NCBI GenBank assembly: GCA_027068075.1 | Contig: JAMOUJ010000006.1 | Span: forward strand, 410,706-462,358 | DNA: 51,653 nt | Reading direction: 5' to 3' | Origin: Candidatus Aminicenantota bacterium | GTDB lineage: Bacteria; Acidobacteriota; Aminicenantia; S016-38 | In this document: piece by piece, positions 21,864 through 47,458 of the stretch | Layout of the letters: each line of letters starts with the position of its first letter | Numbering within the stretch: position 1 is the first letter of the stretch | Position numbers and translations under genes: made by a program | The notes under the pieces: model-generated | What the model saw: only the letters and a program-made list of their open reading frames with translations | Told to the model about the DNA's origin: nothing | The model's database searches: none

Positions 21864-23588
21864 TCACCAGGTTCCAAGGATTTTCACACCCAGAACCCTT
21901 CGGTCGCCTTTTCTTTCAAACCGGGCCGGAACGAAGGTGGGTGAAATTCTGAATTCAAGAAATCCCCTTCCCCTAACTTCAAGTTCTGCCTTTCTTCGGG
22001 AAGGGGTGAAGGTTAAGGTTTTAAGCCTCTTTCCCCGCCAGAACACCCTTACCTTCTGAGCCTTCCTGCCCGTTTTCTCAAAGGGGAATCCGGATTCCAG
22101 AATCACGGGTTTCCTGAAAATAAAGTAAATCCCAGCCTTTTTCCGGGTCCATGAAAAGCCCTCCTCCCGGGGATATAACCCGTAGGAATAGATTTTGCCC
22201 TTTTCCACCGACCATGTGGCCGGGTGAAGTTTCTGGAAGGAGACAAGGCTTCCAAGGAGAAAGGAGGCCAGAAGCAAGAGCCGGGCTATCCTTTGCCATC
22301 TCATTTCCGGGGGTTTCATCTGGCCCAGAAGGAAAAAGAAAAGAAGGATTACCTCGGGGTTCCACAGGGCGCTGTGGACGAGGAGGGCGAAGAGGAAGAG
22401 GAGAAAAACCTTTTTTTCCGGACCGGGCCTTGCCAGGAGATATGGGAGAAGGAAAAGAAGGAAGCCTGCAAGACCTGCCATGCCCAGTTCCGCCGCCATC
22501 CCCAAGTAGACCGAGGGAACCACATCGTTGAGGCCCGGATTGTCGTATTCCGCCATGACGAAGAAAATGAAATTTCCGGGACCAACCCCGGAAAGGGGAG
22601 CGGTTTTCAAAGCCCTTAAAGCCCGGGAATAGAGGATGTTTCTGCCCTCGCTCACCACAGTCATGTCCGGATTTTCCTTCACATATTTTTTCATCCTCCT
22701 GTGAAGGTGAGGAAGGGAGACTAACAGGCCCAGGAGGAAAATGGGCACGAATATGGCCTTGAATTTCGTGGAGAGGGCTTTGTCAAACACGAAGAAAACC
22801 ATGGCCAGAAAGACTATAATCAGCCCTGTTCTTGAGGAAGAGAGAAAAACCATGCCCAGGGGAGGAAGAGACCATAGGGCTTCCTTCAGGGACTTTGACC
22901 TCAGGAGGAGCCAGGAGAATAGAGCAGCGGAGAAGATCCCCGCAGCGTTGGGGTCGGAGAAGGTTCCGTTGTACCTGAAAACCCAGCGCCAGGGACCCGG
23001 AGGAAGCAGAACGAACCTCCCGGAACTCTGGATGAGGGCCACCCCCAGGGAAATGAGGGTGGAGAGGGACATCGTTCTCAGAGCCAGGTCAAGATTTATA
23101 TCCTTGAGGAGATGGTATCCCCGGGACCCGGCGGTGTAAAGAAAAAGGGTAAAGGCCAGAAGTAAAATGCCGAAGGAAAGCCTGGGACCTCCCGGGGCCA
23201 CGGGGGTGTTTTTCAAAAACGCCAGGGGGGATAGGGTTATGTTGGACCACCTGAGCAAAAGAAAAAAGGCTCCGGTCCACAGGAGGGGAAGGAAAAAGGA
23301 ATAATAGGGGGTGGATTTTTCCCCTTCTTTCTTGAACAACACATATCCCACCACCGGATATAGGGAAAGGGCGGGGTAATTGAAGGGGAGTTCTACCGGG
23401 AGAAACCAGACCAGGGAGTTTACCAGGGGCAGGAGGAACAATACGAAGTATATTCCCCTTTTTCCCGCCAGGGCTGCGGCCATTCCCGCCAGAAGGAGGC
23501 CCAGCATGAAGGGAAGGGCTCCCAGTCTGGAAAAGGCCCATAGGTGAAGGGAAAGGGCCAGAAGCAATGCAGTTCTTTCAATTTTCAA
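21864..23588 (-). CDS. O-antigen ligase / polymerase-like membrane protein (Wzy_C type)
   Basis: This 574-residue protein has 10-12 hydrophobic segments and a C-terminal soluble domain of about 110 residues. The Wzy_C hallmark is present: FSDPNAAGIFSAAL, then the large-loop pattern RALKTAPLSGVGPGNFIFF, and VYLGMAAELGMAGLAGFLL. Such proteins join or polymerise lipid-linked glycans on the periplasmic side. The conserved loop His is not obvious. I start at TTG 23588, which has GGAGGAAA 6 bases upstream; the longer frame to 23639 lacks an SD. The heparinase-like gene follows within 3 bases. Confidence 0.75.
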   Translation of the reverse strand: MKIERTALLLALSLHLWAFSRLGALPFMLGLLLAGMAAALAGKRGIYFVLFLLPLVNSLVWFLPVELPFNYPALSLYPVVGYVLFKKEGEKSTPYYSFFLPLLWTGAFFLLLRWSNITLSPLAFLKNTPVAPGGPRLSFGILLLAFTLFLYTAGSRGYHLLKDINLDLALRTMSLSTLISLGVALIQSSGRFVLLPPGPWRWVFRYNGTFSDPNAAGIFSAALFSWLLLRSKSLKEALWSLPPLGMVFLSSSRTGLIIVFLAMVFFVFDKALSTKFKAIFVPIFLLGLLVSLPHLHRRMKKYVKENPDMTVVSEGRNILYSRALRALKTAPLSGVGPGNFIFFVMAEYDNPGLNDVVPSVYLGMAAELGMAGLAGFLLFLLPYLLARPGPEKKVFLLFLFALLVHSALWNPEVILLFFFLLGQMKPPEMRWQRIARLLLLASFLLGSLVSFQKLHPATWSVEKGKIYSYGLYPREEGFSWTRKKAGIYFIFRKPVILESGFPFEKTGRKAQKVRVFWRGKRLKTLTFTPSRRKAELEVRGRGFLEFRISPTFVPARFERKGDRRVLGVKILGTW

Positions 23589-23712
23589 GGGCTTTCCTCC
23601 GCCGTTAGAATGATAAGATAAGGGGGAAGAAAATATCAAGGAGGTTTTTGTGGAAACTTCCTCTTTTTTTCGTAAAAATAAATTGGGTGAAATTTATAAG
23701 GAGGTTGACCGT

Positions 23713-26958: not shown

Positions 26959-27900
26959 GTGAAGAAACTTTCCGTGGTAATACCGGTTTACAACGAGGAG
27001 GAGAATCTCCTGCCCCTTTACGAAGAATTAAAGGAGGTTTTGAAAAACCTCCCCATGGAGCACGAAATAATCCTGGTGGACGACGGGAGCGGGGACCGTT
27101 CCTGGGAGATAATCAAGGACCTGGCCGGAAGGGATCCAGCGGTAAAAGGTATAAGGTTCCGGAGAAACTTCGGGCAGACCCCGGCCATGGTGGCTGGATT
27201 TGACGAGGCCACCGGGGATGTGGTGGTTACCATGGACGCCGACAGGCAGAACGACCCCAGGGACATTCCAAAACTACTGAAGAAGATGGAAGAGGGCTAC
27301 GACATAGTCAGCGGATGGAGAAAGGACAGAAAGGATCCCTTTCTCACCAGAAAACTCCCGTCCATGATAGCCAACAAACTTATTTCCTGGGTGACGGGGC
27401 TTCACCTTCACGATTACGGTTGCACCCTCAAGGCTTATAAAACGGAAGTGGTCAAAAACATTGACCTTTACGGTCAGATGCACAGATTCATCCCCGCGGT
27501 GGCCTCCATGTACGGGGTGGATGTGGCGGAGATCGTGGTTAACCACAGGCCCAGGGTGGCGGGTAAGTCCAAATACGGTCTTTCCAGGACCTTCAAGGTG
27601 ATCCTGGATCTCATCTCCCTTAAATTCCTCATGAGTTATTCCACCAGACCCCTTCACATCTTCGGGGGATTGGGCCTGCTTTCCTTTTCCCTGGGAATGC
27701 TCTCCGGGCTTTACCTCACCTACATAAAGTATGTTCACAAAAAGCCCATAGGAAACCGTCCTCTTCTCTCCCTTACCGTTCTCCTCATCCTGGCCGGCGT
27801 GCAACTCATAGTGCTGGGTTTGCTGGGGGAACTCCTCACCAGGACCTATTACGAAAGTTCACGAAAAAAAATATACTCCGTTAAGGAGAAGATTCCATGA
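26959..27900 (+). CDS. GT2-family glycosyltransferase (polyprenyl-phosphate sugar transferase type)
   Basis: This 313-residue protein has the GT-A fold start (LSVVIPVYNEEENL), the nucleotide-binding LVDDGSGD and the metal-binding VTMDADRQNDP. A basic KSKYGLSRT stretch and two C-terminal membrane helices (about 235-260 and 270-295) follow. This matches the dolichyl/undecaprenyl-phosphate sugar transferase subgroup (ArnC, GtrB, DPM1), which puts one sugar on a polyprenyl phosphate. The donor is not readable. The start is GTG at 26959 with no SD. A small outer-membrane-like protein follows. It could feed the GT-C enzymes found elsewhere in the window, but that is inference. Confidence 0.85.
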   Translation: MKKLSVVIPVYNEEENLLPLYEELKEVLKNLPMEHEIILVDDGSGDRSWEIIKDLAGRDPAVKGIRFRRNFGQTPAMVAGFDEATGDVVVTMDADRQNDPRDIPKLLKKMEEGYDIVSGWRKDRKDPFLTRKLPSMIANKLISWVTGLHLHDYGCTLKAYKTEVVKNIDLYGQMHRFIPAVASMYGVDVAEIVVNHRPRVAGKSKYGLSRTFKVILDLISLKFLMSYSTRPLHIFGGLGLLSFSLGMLSGLYLTYIKYVHKKPIGNRPLLSLTVLLILAGVQLIVLGLLGELLTRTYYESSRKKIYSVKEKIP

Positions 27901-35905: not shown

Positions 35906-38125
35906 ATGAAACAATCCATTCTTGACAGGTTTATGAGCCGGAAGGGATTGTATGTTGGGTTTTGGTTCGTTACCATAGTGATGGTAACGGCCCTGATTAT
36001 CTTCACTGCCAATCTGGCAAAGGAAGTCCCGCCCATACCCCAGACGGTAAAATCCGCCTCCGGGGAGGTGCTCTACACCTACGACGATGTGGTGCAGGGC
36101 AAGGCCTATTTCCAGGAATTTGATCTTATGGACTACGGAACCATTCTGGGAATGGGGGCGTATCTGGGGCCGGACTTCTCCACGGAGTTCTTTCACAAAA
36201 GGGCAGAATTTCTCTACGACTACTACGCCAAGGAACTTTTCAACAAGCCCAGGAGCGAACTCACGAAACTGGAAATGGGAGCCGTTAAGGAAAGGGTGAA
36301 GCAGGACATCCGGGAAGAGACCCATTTAAGGAAGGAGGGGGTTGTTTACACCCACGCCTCCGCAGAGGCCTTCAAGCGCAACCGGGATTATCTGGTTAAT
36401 TTCCTGGTAAACGGAGACAGGTCCAGGGCCTGGCCGGGGAAGGTTATAAGGCCGGAGGAGGCGGTTAAAATCGCCGCCTTCATTGATTGGTCCCAACTGG
36501 TCCAGTCCTCTTTGAGGCCGGGCACCAACAGGACCTGGTCCAACGATTGGCCTCCGGAGCCCCTGGTGGACCAGCGCTCCTCCTGGACCAACCATTTTTA
36601 CTCCCTATGGGAGTTCCTCCTCCTGTGGACCTTTACGATTCTGGTGATTTTCCTGGCCTACGAATACCTCCTGAAGAAGGACGAACCCCTGGGACCTCCC
36701 CTGGAAATAACAGACCTTTATCCTTCCCAGGTAAAACTTCTTAAATATGTTCCCATAGTGGCCCTTCTTTTCTTCGTCCAGTTGATAATAGGGGGTTATC
36801 TGGCCCATCTTTACGCCGACCCTGCCAACGACTTCGTCTTCTCCCAGAACCTTTTGCCCTTCAACGCCATGAGGGGAATCCACATAAACCTGGCCATCCT
36901 CTGGATTGCCATCGGATGGTTGGTGGGTGGACTTCTTATAGCCCCCTTGGTGGCGGGGGAGGACCTGAAATTTCCCTGGCTGGTGGATGTTCTGTGGGTG
37001 GCCCTGCTGGTGGTGGGCCTGGGAGGAATAGCGGGGATTTACCTGGGAGCCACCGGGCACCTCAGGGATGTGTGGTTCTGGCTGGGCAACGAAGGCAGGG
37101 AGTTTTTGAACCTGGGGAGAATATGGGACATCGCCCTGGTCCTTGGACTGGTCCTCTGGTTCCTCATGGTCTTCAGTCTGGTGAGAAAAGCAAAGGAAAA
37201 CAGCGTCATGCTGGGGGTGATCATATGGTCCGCCTTTGGAATCGCCACCCTCTACATCGCCGGTATGATGCCCCTCACCAAAATTATGCCCAACTTCACC
37301 GTGGGAGATTACTACAGGTGGTGGGTGGTCCACCTCTGGGTGGAACTTACCTTTGAACTCTTCGCCGCCGGAGTTCTGGCCTATCTATCCGTGGCCATCG
37401 GTCTGATTTCCAGAAAGACGGCGGAGAGGATCATGCTGTTTGAGATCTTCCTCATCATGATGACCGGCGTCCTGGGGGTTGGCCATCACTACTGGTGGCA
37501 GGGACTTGATCAGTACTGGATCGCCGTGGGAGGAATTTTCTCGGCCCTGGAGCCTCTCCCCCTGGTCCTCATGATGATAGAGGCCTGGAAGAACCAGCGG
37601 GAGAAGATATCTTCCCCGGGAGGGTTTGCCTACACGGTGCCCTTCATGTGGCTGGCGGGTTCGGCCTTCCTCAACTGGCTTGGAGCGGGATTCTTCGGGA
37701 TGGTGATCAACACCCCCACCATAGATTACTACGCCCACGGAACTTACCTCATCATGCCCCACGCCCATGTGGCGCTCCTCGGAGCCTTCGGATACATTTC
37801 ACTGGCTTTCCTCTATCTGGTGGCCAGATCCCACGCTTCAGCCCGGGGATTAGTCTGGAGCGAAAAACTCAGCAAATGGGGTTTCTGGCTTCTCACCATA
37901 GGGGTCGTACTTTTCGCCGTTCCCACCTCTATAATAGGATTCCATCAGGCTCAGGTTTCCCACGATCTGGGCTATTATTTCGCCCGGAGCAGGGAGGCCC
38001 TTGCCCCGGTCATGGGATGGGCTAAGATAAGGATAATTCCCGATACCCTCATGATCGTGGGGGGAGCCCTCATACTTCTTGACCTGGTGAAGAAGATTTA
38101 TCTGAGCAAAAAGGCCACCGGCTGA
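35906..38125 (+). CDS. norZ: Quinol-dependent nitric oxide reductase (qNOR, NorZ)
   Basis: This 739-residue inner-membrane enzyme reduces 2 NO to N2O using quinol. A periplasmic domain (about 40-230) between the first helix and the NorB-like core marks the quinol type, where the NorC-like part is fused and carries no haem c (no CxxCH). Metal ligands are present: His476 and Glu480 (HLWVE), His527-His528 (GVGHHYWW), and His619 and His621 (MPHAHVA) for the haems and the non-haem iron. It is monocistronic, with a leader and a terminator-like hairpin, and no denitrification genes are nearby. That suggests NO detoxification rather than respiration. Confidence 0.93.
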   Translation: MKQSILDRFMSRKGLYVGFWFVTIVMVTALIIFTANLAKEVPPIPQTVKSASGEVLYTYDDVVQGKAYFQEFDLMDYGTILGMGAYLGPDFSTEFFHKRAEFLYDYYAKELFNKPRSELTKLEMGAVKERVKQDIREETHLRKEGVVYTHASAEAFKRNRDYLVNFLVNGDRSRAWPGKVIRPEEAVKIAAFIDWSQLVQSSLRPGTNRTWSNDWPPEPLVDQRSSWTNHFYSLWEFLLLWTFTILVIFLAYEYLLKKDEPLGPPLEITDLYPSQVKLLKYVPIVALLFFVQLIIGGYLAHLYADPANDFVFSQNLLPFNAMRGIHINLAILWIAIGWLVGGLLIAPLVAGEDLKFPWLVDVLWVALLVVGLGGIAGIYLGATGHLRDVWFWLGNEGREFLNLGRIWDIALVLGLVLWFLMVFSLVRKAKENSVMLGVIIWSAFGIATLYIAGMMPLTKIMPNFTVGDYYRWWVVHLWVELTFELFAAGVLAYLSVAIGLISRKTAERIMLFEIFLIMMTGVLGVGHHYWWQGLDQYWIAVGGIFSALEPLPLVLMMIEAWKNQREKISSPGGFAYTVPFMWLAGSAFLNWLGAGFFGMVINTPTIDYYAHGTYLIMPHAHVALLGAFGYISLAFLYLVARSHASARGLVWSEKLSKWGFWLLTIGVVLFAVPTSIIGFHQAQVSHDLGYYFARSREALAPVMGWAKIRIIPDTLMIVGGALILLDLVKKIYLSKKATG

Positions 38126-41878: not shown

Positions 41879-42220
41879 ATGCTCAAAATAGTGAAAGATA
41901 AGTTGAAGGATGTCACCGTCCTGAGGCTGGAGGGAAAACTTGTCATAGGCGACGAGGTGGAGGAGTTTCGCAAGGCCATAACCGAGGCAGTAAAGGAGGG
42001 GGCCAAAAAGATAGTGATAGACCTCTCTAAACTTTCCTACATGGACAGCACAGGCCTGGGAGAATTGGTCAGGGCCTACACCACGGTGAAAAAGGCCAAC
42101 GGAAATTTGAAACTTGCCAGCCTTACAGAAAAGGTCAAGGACCTCATGTTCATGACTAAACTTCTTACCATATTTGAAAACTACGACACGGTGGAGGAGG
42201 CAGCCGGCTCCTTTGAATGA
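41879..42220 (+). CDS. STAS-domain anti-sigma factor antagonist
   Basis: This 113-residue protein has the SpoIIAA/RsbV fold. The switch motif YMDSTGLGELVRAY carries the phosphorylatable Ser57. In its unphosphorylated form such a protein binds and removes an anti-sigma or partner kinase. No RsbW-like kinase, phosphatase or sigma factor is encoded nearby in this window. A full SD (AAGGAGGTGAAGG) precedes the ATG. Its stop overlaps the next ATG (ATGA), so it is translated together with a membrane protein of the glycan locus, which is unusual company. Confidence 0.92.
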   Translation: MLKIVKDKLKDVTVLRLEGKLVIGDEVEEFRKAITEAVKEGAKKIVIDLSKLSYMDSTGLGELVRAYTTVKKANGNLKLASLTEKVKDLMFMTKLLTIFENYDTVEEAAGSFE

Positions 42221-43662
42221 GGAGATTTTTTCTCCTTCTTTTTCTTGTCTATGTTTTCTTCGCCCTGACCGGGGATTTTTCCGCCATTAAAAGGGGATTT
42301 TCCCCGGCCGAAGAGGCCACCTATCTCCTGGCCCAGAGGTGGGAGGGAGCAACCCCCACCGGCTTGAATTACCTCAGGAGACTTTACCCCCGGGGCGGAC
42401 GGGTGGTTCTCACCTGGAGGGAAAAACCTCAACCCTACTCACCCTGGCTTTACAACGCCGCATCCTATCCCTTTTTCCGCCTTTTAGGGGAAAGGGGGCT
42501 TTATCTCCTCAACGCAGTTTTTCTCCTCTTGGCCCTGGAGGTTCTGCTCCTCGTCCTGGGCCCTTCAGTTTTTCCTTTTCTGGCACTTTTAGGTTCAACC
42601 CTTCCGGTCTTCCTTCTAACGGAGGGGCCCTATGCCCTGATTTTCTTCCTTGCAACACTTGTTCTATACCTGATTTCCTCAGGAAAACCCGCCCTGGCCT
42701 CCGTGGTCGGCGGCTTCCTTTCCTTTTTAGCCCTGCCCTTTTTCTTTTTTCTCCCCCTGGTGGCCGTGGCCGGTAAAAGGAGGACGGTCAATCTTTTTCT
42801 GGGGTTTTCGGCCTTTTTCCTTCTGGTGGCGGTGGGCCTGCACCTGCCTGGAGCCCTTCCATGGGACCTGACCTACACGGCGCCCCTTTACTCCTCTGCC
42901 ACATCGTTTTTGACCCAGCCGGTCCTCTTTTCTTCGGGCAATTTCCCCGTCCTTGAGTTTTTCCTGGGCAGGTTCACAGGCGCGGTTTTGTATTTCCCGC
43001 TCCTTCTGGTCTTTGTGCTGGGCGGTGGCAAAAAAATTCTTCCCGGCCTTCTTTTTCTCGCCGCCTTCCTCTTCATCGGCCCCTTTCACGCTCCCTTCGG
43101 CTTTCACGGGAATCCGTGGCTGGTGGCCTTCGTGCCCTTTGCCCTTCCCCTTATAAAGGGTTTTTATCCCAGGATTCTTGCGGCGGTGGCAGTACTGGCG
43201 GTCTTTTCCATAAACATATTTCCCCTGCGGAGCGGAGCCTATCCTCTGATTTTTTCCAGCCAGATTCCCTTCGTGTGGGGACCGGCAGAGACGAACATAA
43301 TAAATTCAATCCCGGCCATAAAAATAGGCGAAAACCTTCACCTTGACAGGAATTTCTTCAATTACCGGGGTAGTTCCTTCAGGCCCCGGGGAAGGGAGAG
43401 GGTGGAGTTCCTCAGGGTTTCCCCGGAAAGGGAGACGGTTTTCATAATCAAAGACCTGGCCGGAGGAAACCGGGTGTTTCTGAAGGTGAACGGGGCCGTC
43501 CGCAGGTTGAACATGAAGAGGAGGGCCAGGTACACCGAAAAATTTTCAGGGAGGGAATTGGTCCCTGGACTCTTTCTTTACCATGTGACGGTCCAGGCCA
43601 GCCGTTGTAGTCCCGTTCTTCCTCAGAAAATATGCCTGGGGGTGGAGGTCCAGTGGAAGTGA
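42217..43662 (+). CDS. Multi-pass membrane protein, GT-C glycosyltransferase-like
   Basis: This 481-residue protein has 9-11 hydrophobic helices (residues about 1-360) and a soluble C-terminal domain of about 110 residues. An early extracytoplasmic loop holds SPAEEATYLLAQRW, and LYNAASYPFFRLLG follows, which is the general layout of GT-C enzymes where an acidic residue in the first loop is catalytic. I cannot name the family. It lies between the STAS gene (overlap ATGA) and a methyltransferase (overlap GTGA), ahead of a UbiA-type prenyltransferase, so glycan assembly at the membrane is the likely role. Confidence 0.55.
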   Translation: MRRFFLLLFLVYVFFALTGDFSAIKRGFSPAEEATYLLAQRWEGATPTGLNYLRRLYPRGGRVVLTWREKPQPYSPWLYNAASYPFFRLLGERGLYLLNAVFLLLALEVLLLVLGPSVFPFLALLGSTLPVFLLTEGPYALIFFLATLVLYLISSGKPALASVVGGFLSFLALPFFFFLPLVAVAGKRRTVNLFLGFSAFFLLVAVGLHLPGALPWDLTYTAPLYSSATSFLTQPVLFSSGNFPVLEFFLGRFTGAVLYFPLLLVFVLGGGKKILPGLLFLAAFLFIGPFHAPFGFHGNPWLVAFVPFALPLIKGFYPRILAAVAVLAVFSINIFPLRSGAYPLIFSSQIPFVWGPAETNIINSIPAIKIGENLHLDRNFFNYRGSSFRPRGRERVEFLRVSPERETVFIIKDLAGGNRVFLKVNGAVRRLNMKRRARYTEKFSGRELVPGLFLYHVTVQASRCSPVLPQKICLGVEVQWK

Positions 43663-44519
43663 AATGCCCCCTCTGCGGAGGTTCCAGGGTTAGTTTCTGG
43701 AAAAGAGGGAATTTTGACTACCGCCAGGCCGGAGCCGACGATTTCAAAATAACGGATTCCGACTACGGACTTTTTCCGGACCTTCTTAAGTGCGAAGAAT
43801 GCGGACTTCGCTTTGCCCGGGAGATGCCGTCCCCTTCACAACTGCTCAGCCTTTATTCGGGGGTGGTGGACCCTGACTACGAGGAGGAGGCCGAGGGAAG
43901 GGGACAGAACTTCCTCAGGATTATAAAATTTCTCAAGAGGATAAAACCCGGCGGTAAACTCCTGGATGTGGGGGCGGCCACAGGGATATTTATGGATCTG
44001 GCCCGGCAGGCGGGATGGGAGGTTTACGGGGTAGAGCCTTCCCGATGGGCTTCCCGGAGGGCCCAGGAAAGGGGGCTGAAGGTCTGGGAAGGGGATTTTC
44101 TGGATTATCCCGGGGAGGATAAGTTTCAGATTATCACCATGCTGGACATAATAGAGCACATGGCTACCCCTGGATTGGCCCTGCAGAAGGCCCGGGAACT
44201 CCTGGATGAAGGGGGGATTCTCGTGATTACCACCCCGGATATAGAAAGCCTTGCCGCCCGGATTATGGGGAAAAAGTGGTGGCATCTTCGGCCAGCTCAT
44301 GTGAATTTCTTTTCCCGCCGCACCCTGTTAAAGGCTTCGGAAAAATTCCGGTTCCGCCCGGTAAAACTCAGGCATTACATGTGGAATTTTTCCCTTCACT
44401 ACCTGATAACCCGGTTTTCCTGGGGCAGAAAATATTTTAACTGGAACTTGCTTAAAAAGGTAAAATTAAAACTTGCCCTTTTTGATTCTCTGGAGGCATA
44501 TCTTGAAAAATTACCTTAG
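43659..44519 (+). CDS. SAM-dependent methyltransferase with N-terminal zinc-binding motif
   Basis: This 286-residue protein has an N-terminal CPLCGG ... CEECGL zinc-ribbon-like unit (about 3-55). A class I methyltransferase fold follows: GGKLLDVGAATGIFMDLA for SAM, EVYGVEPS, and ITMLDIIEHM. The type is frequent in O-antigen and deoxysugar loci (C-methyl- or sugar O-methyltransferases). I place the start at GTG 43659, which overlaps the upstream stop as GTGA and has GGAGGT 9 bases before it; an ATG at 43632 lies upstream of that SD. Substrate unknown; context suggests a sugar. Confidence 0.82.
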   Translation: MKCPLCGGSRVSFWKRGNFDYRQAGADDFKITDSDYGLFPDLLKCEECGLRFAREMPSPSQLLSLYSGVVDPDYEEEAEGRGQNFLRIIKFLKRIKPGGKLLDVGAATGIFMDLARQAGWEVYGVEPSRWASRRAQERGLKVWEGDFLDYPGEDKFQIITMLDIIEHMATPGLALQKARELLDEGGILVITTPDIESLAARIMGKKWWHLRPAHVNFFSRRTLLKASEKFRFRPVKLRHYMWNFSLHYLITRFSWGRKYFNWNLLKKVKLKLALFDSLEAYLEKLP

Positions 44520-45390
44520 AGCATTAAGGCTTGGACGCTGGCCCAGAAGCGCATCCATAATAATAGGCACCGGCGCCTACTGGGCCCTGAGGATGAAGTT
44601 TGCCACCCCCACCCCGGACCAAATTCTGAAATTTATTCTGGCCTTTCTCCTGACATGGGGAATTTCCACCGCCAACTACATAATCAACGAAATTGCCGAT
44701 GCCCCCTACGATGTTCACTATCCGGATAAGGCCAGCAGACCGGTGGCTTCTGGCAGGGCCCGGGAGGACCTTCTTCTCCTGGTGTTTTTGTTCCTGGTGG
44801 TGGTTTCCCTCACCGTGGCCTATTACGCTTTCAACCGGGTGTTTTTCCTGGCTCTTATTTCCCTGCTCATAGCCGGAATTTTCTACAATGTAAAGCCCAT
44901 GCGGCTTAAAGACACCCCCTTTGCCGATTCCATCTTTGAGTCCATCAATAATCCCATAAGGCTCACTCTGGGATGGTCCTTCCTTGAACCTTCCCTTCCC
45001 GACCCCTTCCTTCTTCTGGCCTGGTGGGCCTTCGGGAATTTCCTCATGGCAGGTAAAAGGCTTTCGGAGAAATTGTATCTGGGGGATAGGGCGGAAAAAT
45101 ACCGCCGATCCCTGAGGTTTTACTCCCTTTACAGCCTCAAGGCAATGATGATGGCCTCGGCCCTGGCCTTTTTCGTCTTCTTTTTCCTCTTTTGTTTGAG
45201 GAATCACCTGCCCTTCACCATGGGGGCCTCCCTTTTTTCCATCCCCTTCCTGATTAAGTTCTACAGGGATTCTTCCCTTAAGGCCATGGACGAGCCGGAG
45301 AAGGCCATAGTGAGGAGTTCACTTCTGCTTTCCTTTGCCATCTTCGCCTTTATTCTTTTCCTGGGCTTGCTTCTGGACCTGAAGTTTTAG
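44503..45390 (+). CDS. UbiA-family prenyltransferase, DPPR synthase-like
   Basis: This 295-residue membrane protein has about 8-9 helices. The first Asp-rich motif is NEIADAPYDVHYPDKASRPV (Asn62, Asp66, Asp70), then ASG. The Asp-His-Lys-Arg-Pro spacing matches decaprenyl-phosphate phosphoribosyltransferase (mycobacterial Rv3806c), which joins PRPP to decaprenyl phosphate, better than the quinone or haem UbiA enzymes. The later AGKRLSEKLYLGDRAEKYRRS also parallels the KRxxE stretch of that subgroup. The start is TTG at 44503, with GGAGGC 6 bases upstream, inside the methyltransferase end. It converges on an AftA-like gene with a 41-base tail overlap. UbiA fold is sure; the DPPR role is inference. 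Confidence 0.72.
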   Translation: MKNYLRALRLGRWPRSASIIIGTGAYWALRMKFATPTPDQILKFILAFLLTWGISTANYIINEIADAPYDVHYPDKASRPVASGRAREDLLLLVFLFLVVVSLTVAYYAFNRVFFLALISLLIAGIFYNVKPMRLKDTPFADSIFESINNPIRLTLGWSFLEPSLPDPFLLLAWWAFGNFLMAGKRLSEKLYLGDRAEKYRRSLRFYSLYSLKAMMMASALAFFVFFFLFCLRNHLPFTMGASLFSIPFLIKFYRDSSLKAMDEPEKAIVRSSLLLSFAIFAFILFLGLLLDLKF

Positions 45391-47458
45391 GGATTTTTAC
45401 CCTAAGTTCCCAGAGCACCGTTCCCTCCCTTTCCTGTCCCACCCTGACCTCCGAGAATTCAAATTTCGGGAACTTCATCACCACCACGCATTTTTTCCGG
45501 TAAAAAGCCCCCTTCCTTCTTCCATCAATCCTCTCTTCCTTTCCCTCGGGTTCGTATTTTACGAAGAAGGTGGGGAGCAAGTCCCTTTCGCTGCATTTTT
45601 CCTTTATCAGAATCAGTTTTTTCCCGTCCCTGTAAACCCTGAACTCGTCCGCCTGGGCCAGCGGTTTTTCTTTCAACGGAAGGTCCTTGAACCGGGTAAA
45701 ATCGTTGTATATGATCCTCTCCAGCAGTCCCAGTTTTTCCCTGTTTTTTAGGCCGATGTCCTTTACCCGGTAAAGATATTTATACCTCCGCTTCCAGGTC
45801 CTTTCCAGGGCAGAGAAGGCCCCCGGGGAAAATTCTATCTTCAGGGGAAAGAAGGAGTTGGGATATGTGTATGGAAACTGATCCATGAGGAGGGTTATGT
45901 ACCTTCCCCCTCCGGGCCACACGAAGTCTATCCTCCCAAACTTGTTGTGGACGAGTGCCCAGCGGACGAATCCGGGATTTTCGCTGAAGGATAGGAGTTG
46001 GAGGAAGGCCAACCGCTGGGAAAGGAGGGCAGAGGGGTGGGAAAATATGGAGGCGGTGGGAAGGAAAAAATAAATGGGGCGGAAGGGATTCATGCTCTGG
46101 TTGATCCTGTAGGTGGTCAAAACCACCTTATCCTTCAGAATCTCCGCCAGGGACGGGTCCCAGGAGATTCCGTTGACCAGGGAATTTATTATCTGCTTTC
46201 TCCGTTCCTTCACCTCCACATTGGAGATCTGATAGAGGAGGGGGTTTACGGCGAAGAGAAAAAGGAGGACGGCGGCCACCCTGGTAAATCCTTTCCATTT
46301 AAGGGAAAGTTCGTGCAATAAGTAGGCCAATCCCACCAGCAATATTAAAGTGAGAAACGGGGATGTCTTGTGGGGAAGCATGGGGGATTTTTCCAGGGAG
46401 AAGAAGTAGGCCAGGAAAAGCCACCCCAGGGTTCCCAGAAGGAGGGAAAGGAGGACTCTCCTGTGGATTATGTAAAGAAGGCCCGCCAGGTAAATTAAGC
46501 CCAGGAGGGAATACATGCGGGAAAGGTAAAAATGGGTGATTAAGTGCCTTCCCGAATAGGGTTCCATCCCTTTGAAGACGAGGTCCTTGAGGTAAGGGAG
46601 GGTGTAAGGGGCCGAGGCCAGAAAGAAGAAAATCCCCAGGACCAAAAGATAAGGTAGCGTTTTCCTCAGGTTTTTTCTTTTTTCGGCGAGGAGGAAGGGA
46701 AGGGATAATCCCAGGGGAAGAAACCAGTAATAATAGGTGCCGAAGAGCAGGCCCCCCATAACTCCGCCGACGGCGGCCCTTTTAAACCCGTGGTTTTCCC
46801 CGGCCAGATAAAAGAAATACCAGGGGATCAGGAGAAAGAGAACCAGAAGTTCGTAGGGCTTCTGGAAGAGGTAGAAATTTCCGCTGGTGGAGTATATGGA
46901 GGCAAACTGGGCCAGAAAAATGAAGAAGGAGCGCCGGAGGGGATTGGTTTTCAGAAGAAACCAGAAGGAGAGGACCGGGGCCAGGTATATCACCGCCAGG
47001 GCCCCTTGCTTGAAAACCCATTCAGGGGCCAGGGAAAGAGCGGAGGAGAGTTTTCCCAGAAAATAATGGAAGTAAAATGGATAATGGCTGCTGAGTCCCT
47101 TGAAGTTGAAGTCCACATTTGCCCATGAGTGGGAAAACTTGGTGATCATGGAAATGGAAAAATAATTGTCCCCCCTTATTCCGCCCAGGGTAGTGGGGGT
47201 TCCGTAAAGGATAAACACCGAAAGAAAAAGCATGGTGGCGGAAATTACCGAGACGGCCCAGTGGTAGGGGTATTCGTCCCTTTCCCAGGGCATACTCACC
47301 GTCAAAACCAGAAGGAGGATGGAACAGAGGGGAAAGACCGAGACCACCAGGGGAGGGAATTCCCCGATGTTTTTGAAGAGAACCCCAGGAAGGAGCAGGG
47401 CCGGAATCAGAGGCAAGGCGTAGATTAAAAACAGTTTAGTGGAATGGGAAAGTTTCAT
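45350..47458 (-). CDS. AftA-like membrane arabinofuranosyltransferase (GT-C)
   Basis: This 702-residue protein has 10 or more helices (about 1-420) and a large C-terminal extracytoplasmic domain. The first loop reads TPTTLGGIRGDNYFSISM, with Asp97 as candidate catalytic residue. Asp116 and SSHYPFYFHYFLGKL follow, then PEWVFKQGALAVIYLAP. The order (GTP..G..GD..., D...., YP....LG, W..K......P) follows the N-terminal region of AftA. The C-terminal half (SALLSQRLAFLQLLSF, FVRWALVHNKFGRIDFV, LLMDQFPYTYPNSFFPLKIEF) resembles the AftA C-terminal domain. AftA adds the first D-arabinofuranose to galactan from decaprenyl-phospho-arabinose. I judge by remembered pattern, without alignment. ATG at 47458 follows AAGGGAA; it follows the DUF3187-like gene by 12 bases. 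Confidence 0.6.
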   Translation of the reverse strand: MKLSHSTKLFLIYALPLIPALLLPGVLFKNIGEFPPLVVSVFPLCSILLLVLTVSMPWERDEYPYHWAVSVISATMLFLSVFILYGTPTTLGGIRGDNYFSISMITKFSHSWANVDFNFKGLSSHYPFYFHYFLGKLSSALSLAPEWVFKQGALAVIYLAPVLSFWFLLKTNPLRRSFFIFLAQFASIYSTSGNFYLFQKPYELLVLFLLIPWYFFYLAGENHGFKRAAVGGVMGGLLFGTYYYWFLPLGLSLPFLLAEKRKNLRKTLPYLLVLGIFFFLASAPYTLPYLKDLVFKGMEPYSGRHLITHFYLSRMYSLLGLIYLAGLLYIIHRRVLLSLLLGTLGWLFLAYFFSLEKSPMLPHKTSPFLTLILLVGLAYLLHELSLKWKGFTRVAAVLLFLFAVNPLLYQISNVEVKERRKQIINSLVNGISWDPSLAEILKDKVVLTTYRINQSMNPFRPIYFFLPTASIFSHPSALLSQRLAFLQLLSFSENPGFVRWALVHNKFGRIDFVWPGGGRYITLLMDQFPYTYPNSFFPLKIEFSPGAFSALERTWKRRYKYLYRVKDIGLKNREKLGLLERIIYNDFTRFKDLPLKEKPLAQADEFRVYRDGKKLILIKEKCSERDLLPTFFVKYEPEGKEERIDGRRKGAFYRKKCVVVMKFPKFEFSEVRVGQEREGTVLWELRVKIPKTSGPEASPGKE

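Follow-up and report, generated by a model that had tools for sequence, protein, structure and literature searches.

A 51,653-nucleotide stretch of the genome of a Candidatus Aminicenantota bacterium (contig JAMOUJ010000006.1; the window) contains a gene of the UbiA superfamily whose product, judged by sequence comparison, is a near relative of the decaprenyl-phosphate phosphoribosyltransferases, or decaprenylphosphoryl-5-phosphoribose (DPPR) synthases. Attachment of ribose-phosphate to a membrane lipid is the first step in making the arabinan cell wall of Mycobacterium tuberculosis. The constant partner of the UbiA gene is a zinc-ribbon methyltransferase gene, and a gene for an AftA-like membrane glycosyltransferase adjoins it in the window. 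On balance, the locus appears to encode part of a variant polyprenyl-phospho-pentose (three-component) pathway. The initial annotation, for which only the letters of the window were available, drew on the mycobacterial arabinan route and suggested a polyprenyl-phospho-pentose-based glycan. Beyond its reach, elsewhere in the genome, lie genes for another phosphoribosyltransferase, of the canonical kind, and for a further AftA-like protein, and a methyltransferase-coupled phosphoribose lipid is the better reading. The source genome measures 1.9 Mb with a completeness rating of 100%, and its nearest named relatives among those fetched are Candidatus Aminicenantes/Acidobacteriota assemblies. The three genes concerned are:

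43632..44519, + strand: class I S-adenosylmethionine methyltransferase with an N-terminal CxxC...CxxC zinc-ribbon-like part (PF13489, 98.5 bits)
44503..45390, + strand: predicted UbiA-superfamily polyprenyl-phosphate phosphoribosyltransferase, 'ES[IAV]NNPIR' subfamily (PDB profile, NCBIfam, contact residues, tree)
45350..47458, - strand: AftA-like membrane protein of the glycosyltransferase-C (GT-C) type, 702 residues, ATG start, probable polyprenyl-phospho-pentofuranose glycosyltransferase (AftA_N, PDB profile, fold match)

Family and active site of the UbiA-type protein

Translation of the UbiA gene begins at a TTG codon (position 44503) preceded by a GGAGG box and stops at 45390. The product matches the UbiA family of Pfam (PF01040) with 79 bits and carries the motif N62-E-x2-D66-x3-D70-x5-K76-x2-R79-P. 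Its best three NCBIfam matches are all decaprenyl-phosphate phosphoribosyltransferase models, at no more than 78 bits against cut-offs of 207 to 474, and such models are matched by all 13 members of the subfamily. When a profile of 13 relatives was searched against the whole PDB, the sole enzyme at E<=0.001 was the M. tuberculosis decaprenyl-phosphate phosphoribosyltransferase Rv3806c (8j8j/8j8k; E 1.6e-22).

Residues of Rv3806c that bind phosphoribosyl pyrophosphate (PRPP), Mg and the lipid phosphate have been described (PMC10994848), as have further conserved motif residues (PMC11127046). These positions were compared by aligning the subfamily with four controls, two of them from the same genome (haem O synthase and the MenA-like protein) and two from E. 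coli (UbiA and CyoE). Thirteen of 18 contact or motif residues are identical in the window protein. The contacts R22, Y70, N73, D77, K87, R90, Y138, K143 and K191 are identical in every subfamily row, as are D81, R160, R192 and E195, which lie near the contacts; changes at three other positions of the window protein are conservative (K28R, D74E, K208R). The K87 position is threonine in all four controls, and Y70 and R160 likewise separate the subfamily from them. In a tree the subfamily falls next to the canonical phosphoribosyltransferases, away from UbiA and CyoE; support for the subfamily is modest (65/80), and the branch leading to MenA is long.

An ordinary quinone, haem or lipid prenyltransferase, which the UbiA fold and weak hits on models of ubiA and chlorophyll synthase might suggest, is very improbable and was rejected: contact residues, profile and tree all side with the phosphoribosyltransferases, GKRxxE occupies the place of the prenyltransferases' second acidic motif, and the genome encodes a haem O synthase and a MenA-like protein besides. 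Taken together, these comparisons suggest that the protein works like a DPPR synthase while forming a separate subfamily. It belongs, by sequence, to the PRPP-using branch as a sister subfamily (signature ES[IAV]NNPIR) to the curated DPPR synthase equivalog, of which it is not a member. Its chemistry is very probably phosphoribosyl transfer from PRPP onto polyprenyl phosphate, which is the firm part of the case, and the DPPR-synthase likeness noted in the initial annotation is now on stronger ground than that annotation could give it.

Two observations weigh against simple equivalence with the curated enzymes. The protein reaches 78.4 bits with the equivalog model NF008977, compared with a cut-off of 234. 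Throughout the subfamily, moreover, Q135 of Rv3806c (which contacts ribose O3) is replaced by glycine and Y157 (5-phosphate and lipid phosphate) by asparagine, so that details of the substrate may differ.

Remote likeness of the 702-residue protein to AftA

The genus comparison covered four species, G000 (the source genome) to G003. The only Pfam match of the 702-residue protein is AftA_N (PF12250), at 23.2 bits and under the 26.7 cut-off; that cut-off is passed by its closest orthologue (in G003, 27.5 bits) and by a paralogue in its own genome on contig C4 (52.6 bits). With a profile of the AftA-like family, AftA (8if8) was the one PDB entry below E 0.4, at E 5.7e-15. D128, D147, GLPPFYP and K181 of AftA align with D97, D116, GLxxxYP and K150, which are invariant in the AftA-like family. 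An AlphaFold2 model built with seven sequences (predicted confidence, pLDDT, 64) has 8if8 as its best fold match (E 4e-9; TM-score 0.49/0.56), about six orders of magnitude ahead of the next family, PglB (E 0.03); the match spans about 650 columns and most of 8if8, at an identity of about 15%. Profile match, fold match and aligned residues combine into a well-supported assignment of the predicted protein to the AftA type at a remote level, and it likely uses a polyprenyl-phospho-pentose donor. The C-terminal AftA pattern that the initial annotation read in the sequence has no Pfam counterpart here: AftA_N is the sole Pfam match among seven family members, though the predicted fold does follow most of 8if8. 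A DPPR-synthase-type UbiA frame and an AftA-type GT-C frame do lie side by side in this diderm bacterium, as first described, and the likenesses go well beyond chance.

The AftA-like family is rare: among 297 genomes of the phylum there were matches in four, three belonging to this genus and one match being weak. The paralogue (C4:24039-25727) adjoins a peptidase-like gene, and a similar arrangement occurs in G003.

A conserved methyltransferase neighbour

The methyltransferase gene overlaps the start of the UbiA gene by 17 bases at its 3' end and follows two other genes on the same strand:

41879..42220, + strand: STAS-domain protein, first gene of the row (PF01740, 76 bits)
42217..43662, + strand: 481-residue multi-pass membrane protein, candidate remote GT-C (no family match; weak fold resemblance)

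The row of STAS, 481-residue protein, methyltransferase and UbiA genes is kept in all four species of the genus and is followed by a DUF3187 gene. Neighbours of the UbiA gene were also counted, by translated search for the methyltransferase, at 80 named relatives or loci that are almost all from Acidobacteriota. A methyltransferase gene lies directly upstream of UbiA at 76 of the 80; its presence was noticed in the initial annotation, which missed this role as conserved partner. Solved relatives of the methyltransferase are mostly uncharacterised. The four loci that lack it come from two records labelled Planctomycetes, one labelled Actinobacteria and one labelled Sinorhizobium meliloti. Neighbouring genes were read for three of these distant relatives, one under each label: genes for phosphatases of the haloacid dehalogenase (HAD) type lie near UbiA, and in two of the three a PMT_2-type GT-C gene adjoins it, as the pentofuranose pathway would lead one to expect (PMC11127046). 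Across the class, most families contain genomes that match the UbiA subfamily strongly; family f4 is largely without such matches.

In the 481-residue protein, EExxY is conserved close to the first helix, and the C-terminus carries a beta domain. No family match was found for the protein, and the resemblance of its low-confidence model to a GPI mannosyltransferase is too weak to name it; within the class it was found in this family of genomes only. MgtC- and RdgB-like neighbours seen in relatives, named by eye, are unlikely to belong to the system and do not stand beside the gene in this genus.

Relationship between the UbiA and AftA-like genes

The UbiA and AftA-like genes run towards each other, and their 3' ends share 41 bases, which rules out a single operon. 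Several observations weigh against joint function as well as against the unit implied by the initial annotation, which did not hold up. The AftA-like gene is inserted between UbiA and the DUF3187 gene in G000 and G003 only (two of four species); G001 and G002 have an intact UbiA locus without it, and their AftA-like copies, about 40% identical, are located elsewhere. Only one of the 80 relatives shows the adjacency, and nearly all genomes with the UbiA gene are without an AftA-like gene. The genome encodes four UbiA-type proteins: haem O synthase, the MenA-like protein, the window protein and a canonical DPPR synthase on contig C5 (C5:36987-37631) that passes the NF008977 cut-off with 245.6 bits and could serve the AftA-like proteins instead.

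These data leave real room, well short of an even chance, for the two genes being neighbours by accident, with the methyltransferase-UbiA pair making its own class-wide lipid or glycan and the AftA-like proteins working with the canonical phosphoribosyltransferase. Rarity of the adjacency, the intact UbiA locus without an AftA-like gene in G001 and G002, the convergent orientation and the two phosphoribosyltransferases in one genome all fit such an arrangement. Set against it are the occurrence of the adjacency in two species, between which one third of the residues of the AftA-like protein differ, and the polyprenyl-phospho-pentose chemistry that both enzyme classes share. That the UbiA and AftA-like proteins act together is a tentative proposition, somewhat below an even chance.

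In G001 and G002 (L022, L023) the AftA-like gene follows RsbU-phosphatase-, RsbW-kinase- and STAS-like genes, and a STAS gene also heads the row in the window. The canonical DPPR synthase gene (L007) adjoins pyrF- and pyrD-like genes.

Ribose or arabinose as the donor sugar

A full mycobacterial-type route would convert the lipid to decaprenyl-phospho-arabinose, from which AftA-like enzymes would build arabinan. The closest solved relatives of both end enzymes belong to that pathway. DprE1, however, was not found in the source genome, and neither was an ALO-domain protein; the two FAD_binding_4 proteins that were found are a GlcD-like one and a 286-residue frame of MurB size. Nor did DprE1 pass the cut-off in any of 142 genomes of the class, where the best matches span the flavin adenine dinucleotide (FAD) domain only, whereas the Corynebacterium glutamicum control passed. 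Because DprE1 was not found, arabinose is unlikely, the arabinan route is improbable, and the arabinose branch of the initial annotation is not supported. A ribofuranose donor needs no DprE1 (PMC11127046), and hence a ribose-type donor fits best; polyprenyl-phospho-ribose is probably the donor rather than its arabinose counterpart.

Two further points count against a complete pathway. No dedicated phosphatase came to light: the candidates in the genome, a PAP2 protein and a HAD protein whose gene adjoins a pgsA-like one, are not linked to the locus. Also, a GtrA-type flippase (Rv3789, PF04138) was not matched in the genome, although it was matched in the C. glutamicum control.

A proposed methyltransferase-coupled variant of the three-component pathway

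Comparison supplies the family placement, the active-site residues, the conserved methyltransferase neighbour and the failure to find DprE1; we infer the substrate and product of the UbiA protein, its link with the AftA-like protein, the methyl target and the acceptor glycan, as was the case for the envelope glycan of the initial annotation. In the proposed pathway, the UbiA protein would move a 5-phosphoribosyl group from PRPP to polyprenyl phosphate on the cytoplasmic side, and a putative phosphatase would take off the 5-phosphate to give polyprenyl-phospho-ribofuranose. The methyltransferase encoded upstream may modify this lipid-linked pentose or a sugar it is built onto. A presumed flippase would turn the lipid over, and a GT-C enzyme would then transfer the pentofuranose to an envelope acceptor; in this genus, the AftA-like protein, its paralogue or both would probably fill that role, if they use this donor.

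Such a pathway has partial parallels in known systems. Rv3806c shares with the window protein the UbiA superfamily, the NxxxDxxxD...KxxRP and GKRxxE motifs and most PRPP and polyprenyl-phosphate contacts; the window protein differs in its sister-subfamily status, with ES[IAV]NNPIR, NE for ND, the replacements of Q135 and Y157, and a coupled methyltransferase gene. The ORF15/ORF14/ORF12 three-component systems of Citrobacter youngae (GT136; PMC11127046) likewise combine a UbiA-type phosphoribosyltransferase with a GT-C enzyme in a diderm and use ribofuranose without need of DprE1. Unlike them, the window locus shows no fused or adjacent HAD phosphatase and no MATE flippase (no search was aimed at MATE), has a methyltransferase, and has a GT-C protein that resembles AftA. 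With AftA itself, a galactan 5-O-arabinofuranosyltransferase, the 702-residue protein shares the N-terminal GT-C domain with D...D...GLxxxYP...K and the predicted fold; low identity, the missing C-terminal Pfam match and a genome in which no DprE1 was found set it apart. Pilin arabinosylation by Pseudomonas TfpW resembles the proposal, by literature description alone, in joining a polyprenyl-phospho-pentose route to a membrane glycosyltransferase in a diderm; no link to a pilin gene is seen at the window locus.

Other genes in the window and genome

An O-antigen-ligase-like protein (Wzy_C, 39.6 bits) is encoded at 21864-23639 of the window, adjoining a gene for an unassigned 528-residue protein. 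At 26959-27900 lies a GT2 glycosyltransferase (PF00535) that resembles, by eye, polyprenyl-phosphate hexose synthases, and at 35906-38125 a quinol-type nitric oxide reductase NorB. The short contig C4 carries a type I CRISPR-Cas-like gene set (L003 979-8793), named by eye only.

Significance

The polyprenyl-phospho-ribose pathway is the target of benzothiazinone drugs in mycobacteria. The present comparison gives this chemistry a wide distribution within an uncultured class of diderms, where the DprE1 step is apparently missing, and shows AftA homologues in the Aminicenantes. A bolder and, as it stands, unlikely extension would have most Aminicenantes, one family excepted, produce a methylated polyprenyl-phospho-pentofuranose. 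Phosphoribosyltransferase and methyltransferase would work on one and the same lipid-linked sugar; the resulting methyl-pentose donor would feed an undescribed glycan of the envelope, and a single genus would have recruited AftA-type transferases. The methyltransferase and phosphoribosyltransferase form a gene pair that can be assayed, and they predict a lipid-linked sugar that would be new to description.

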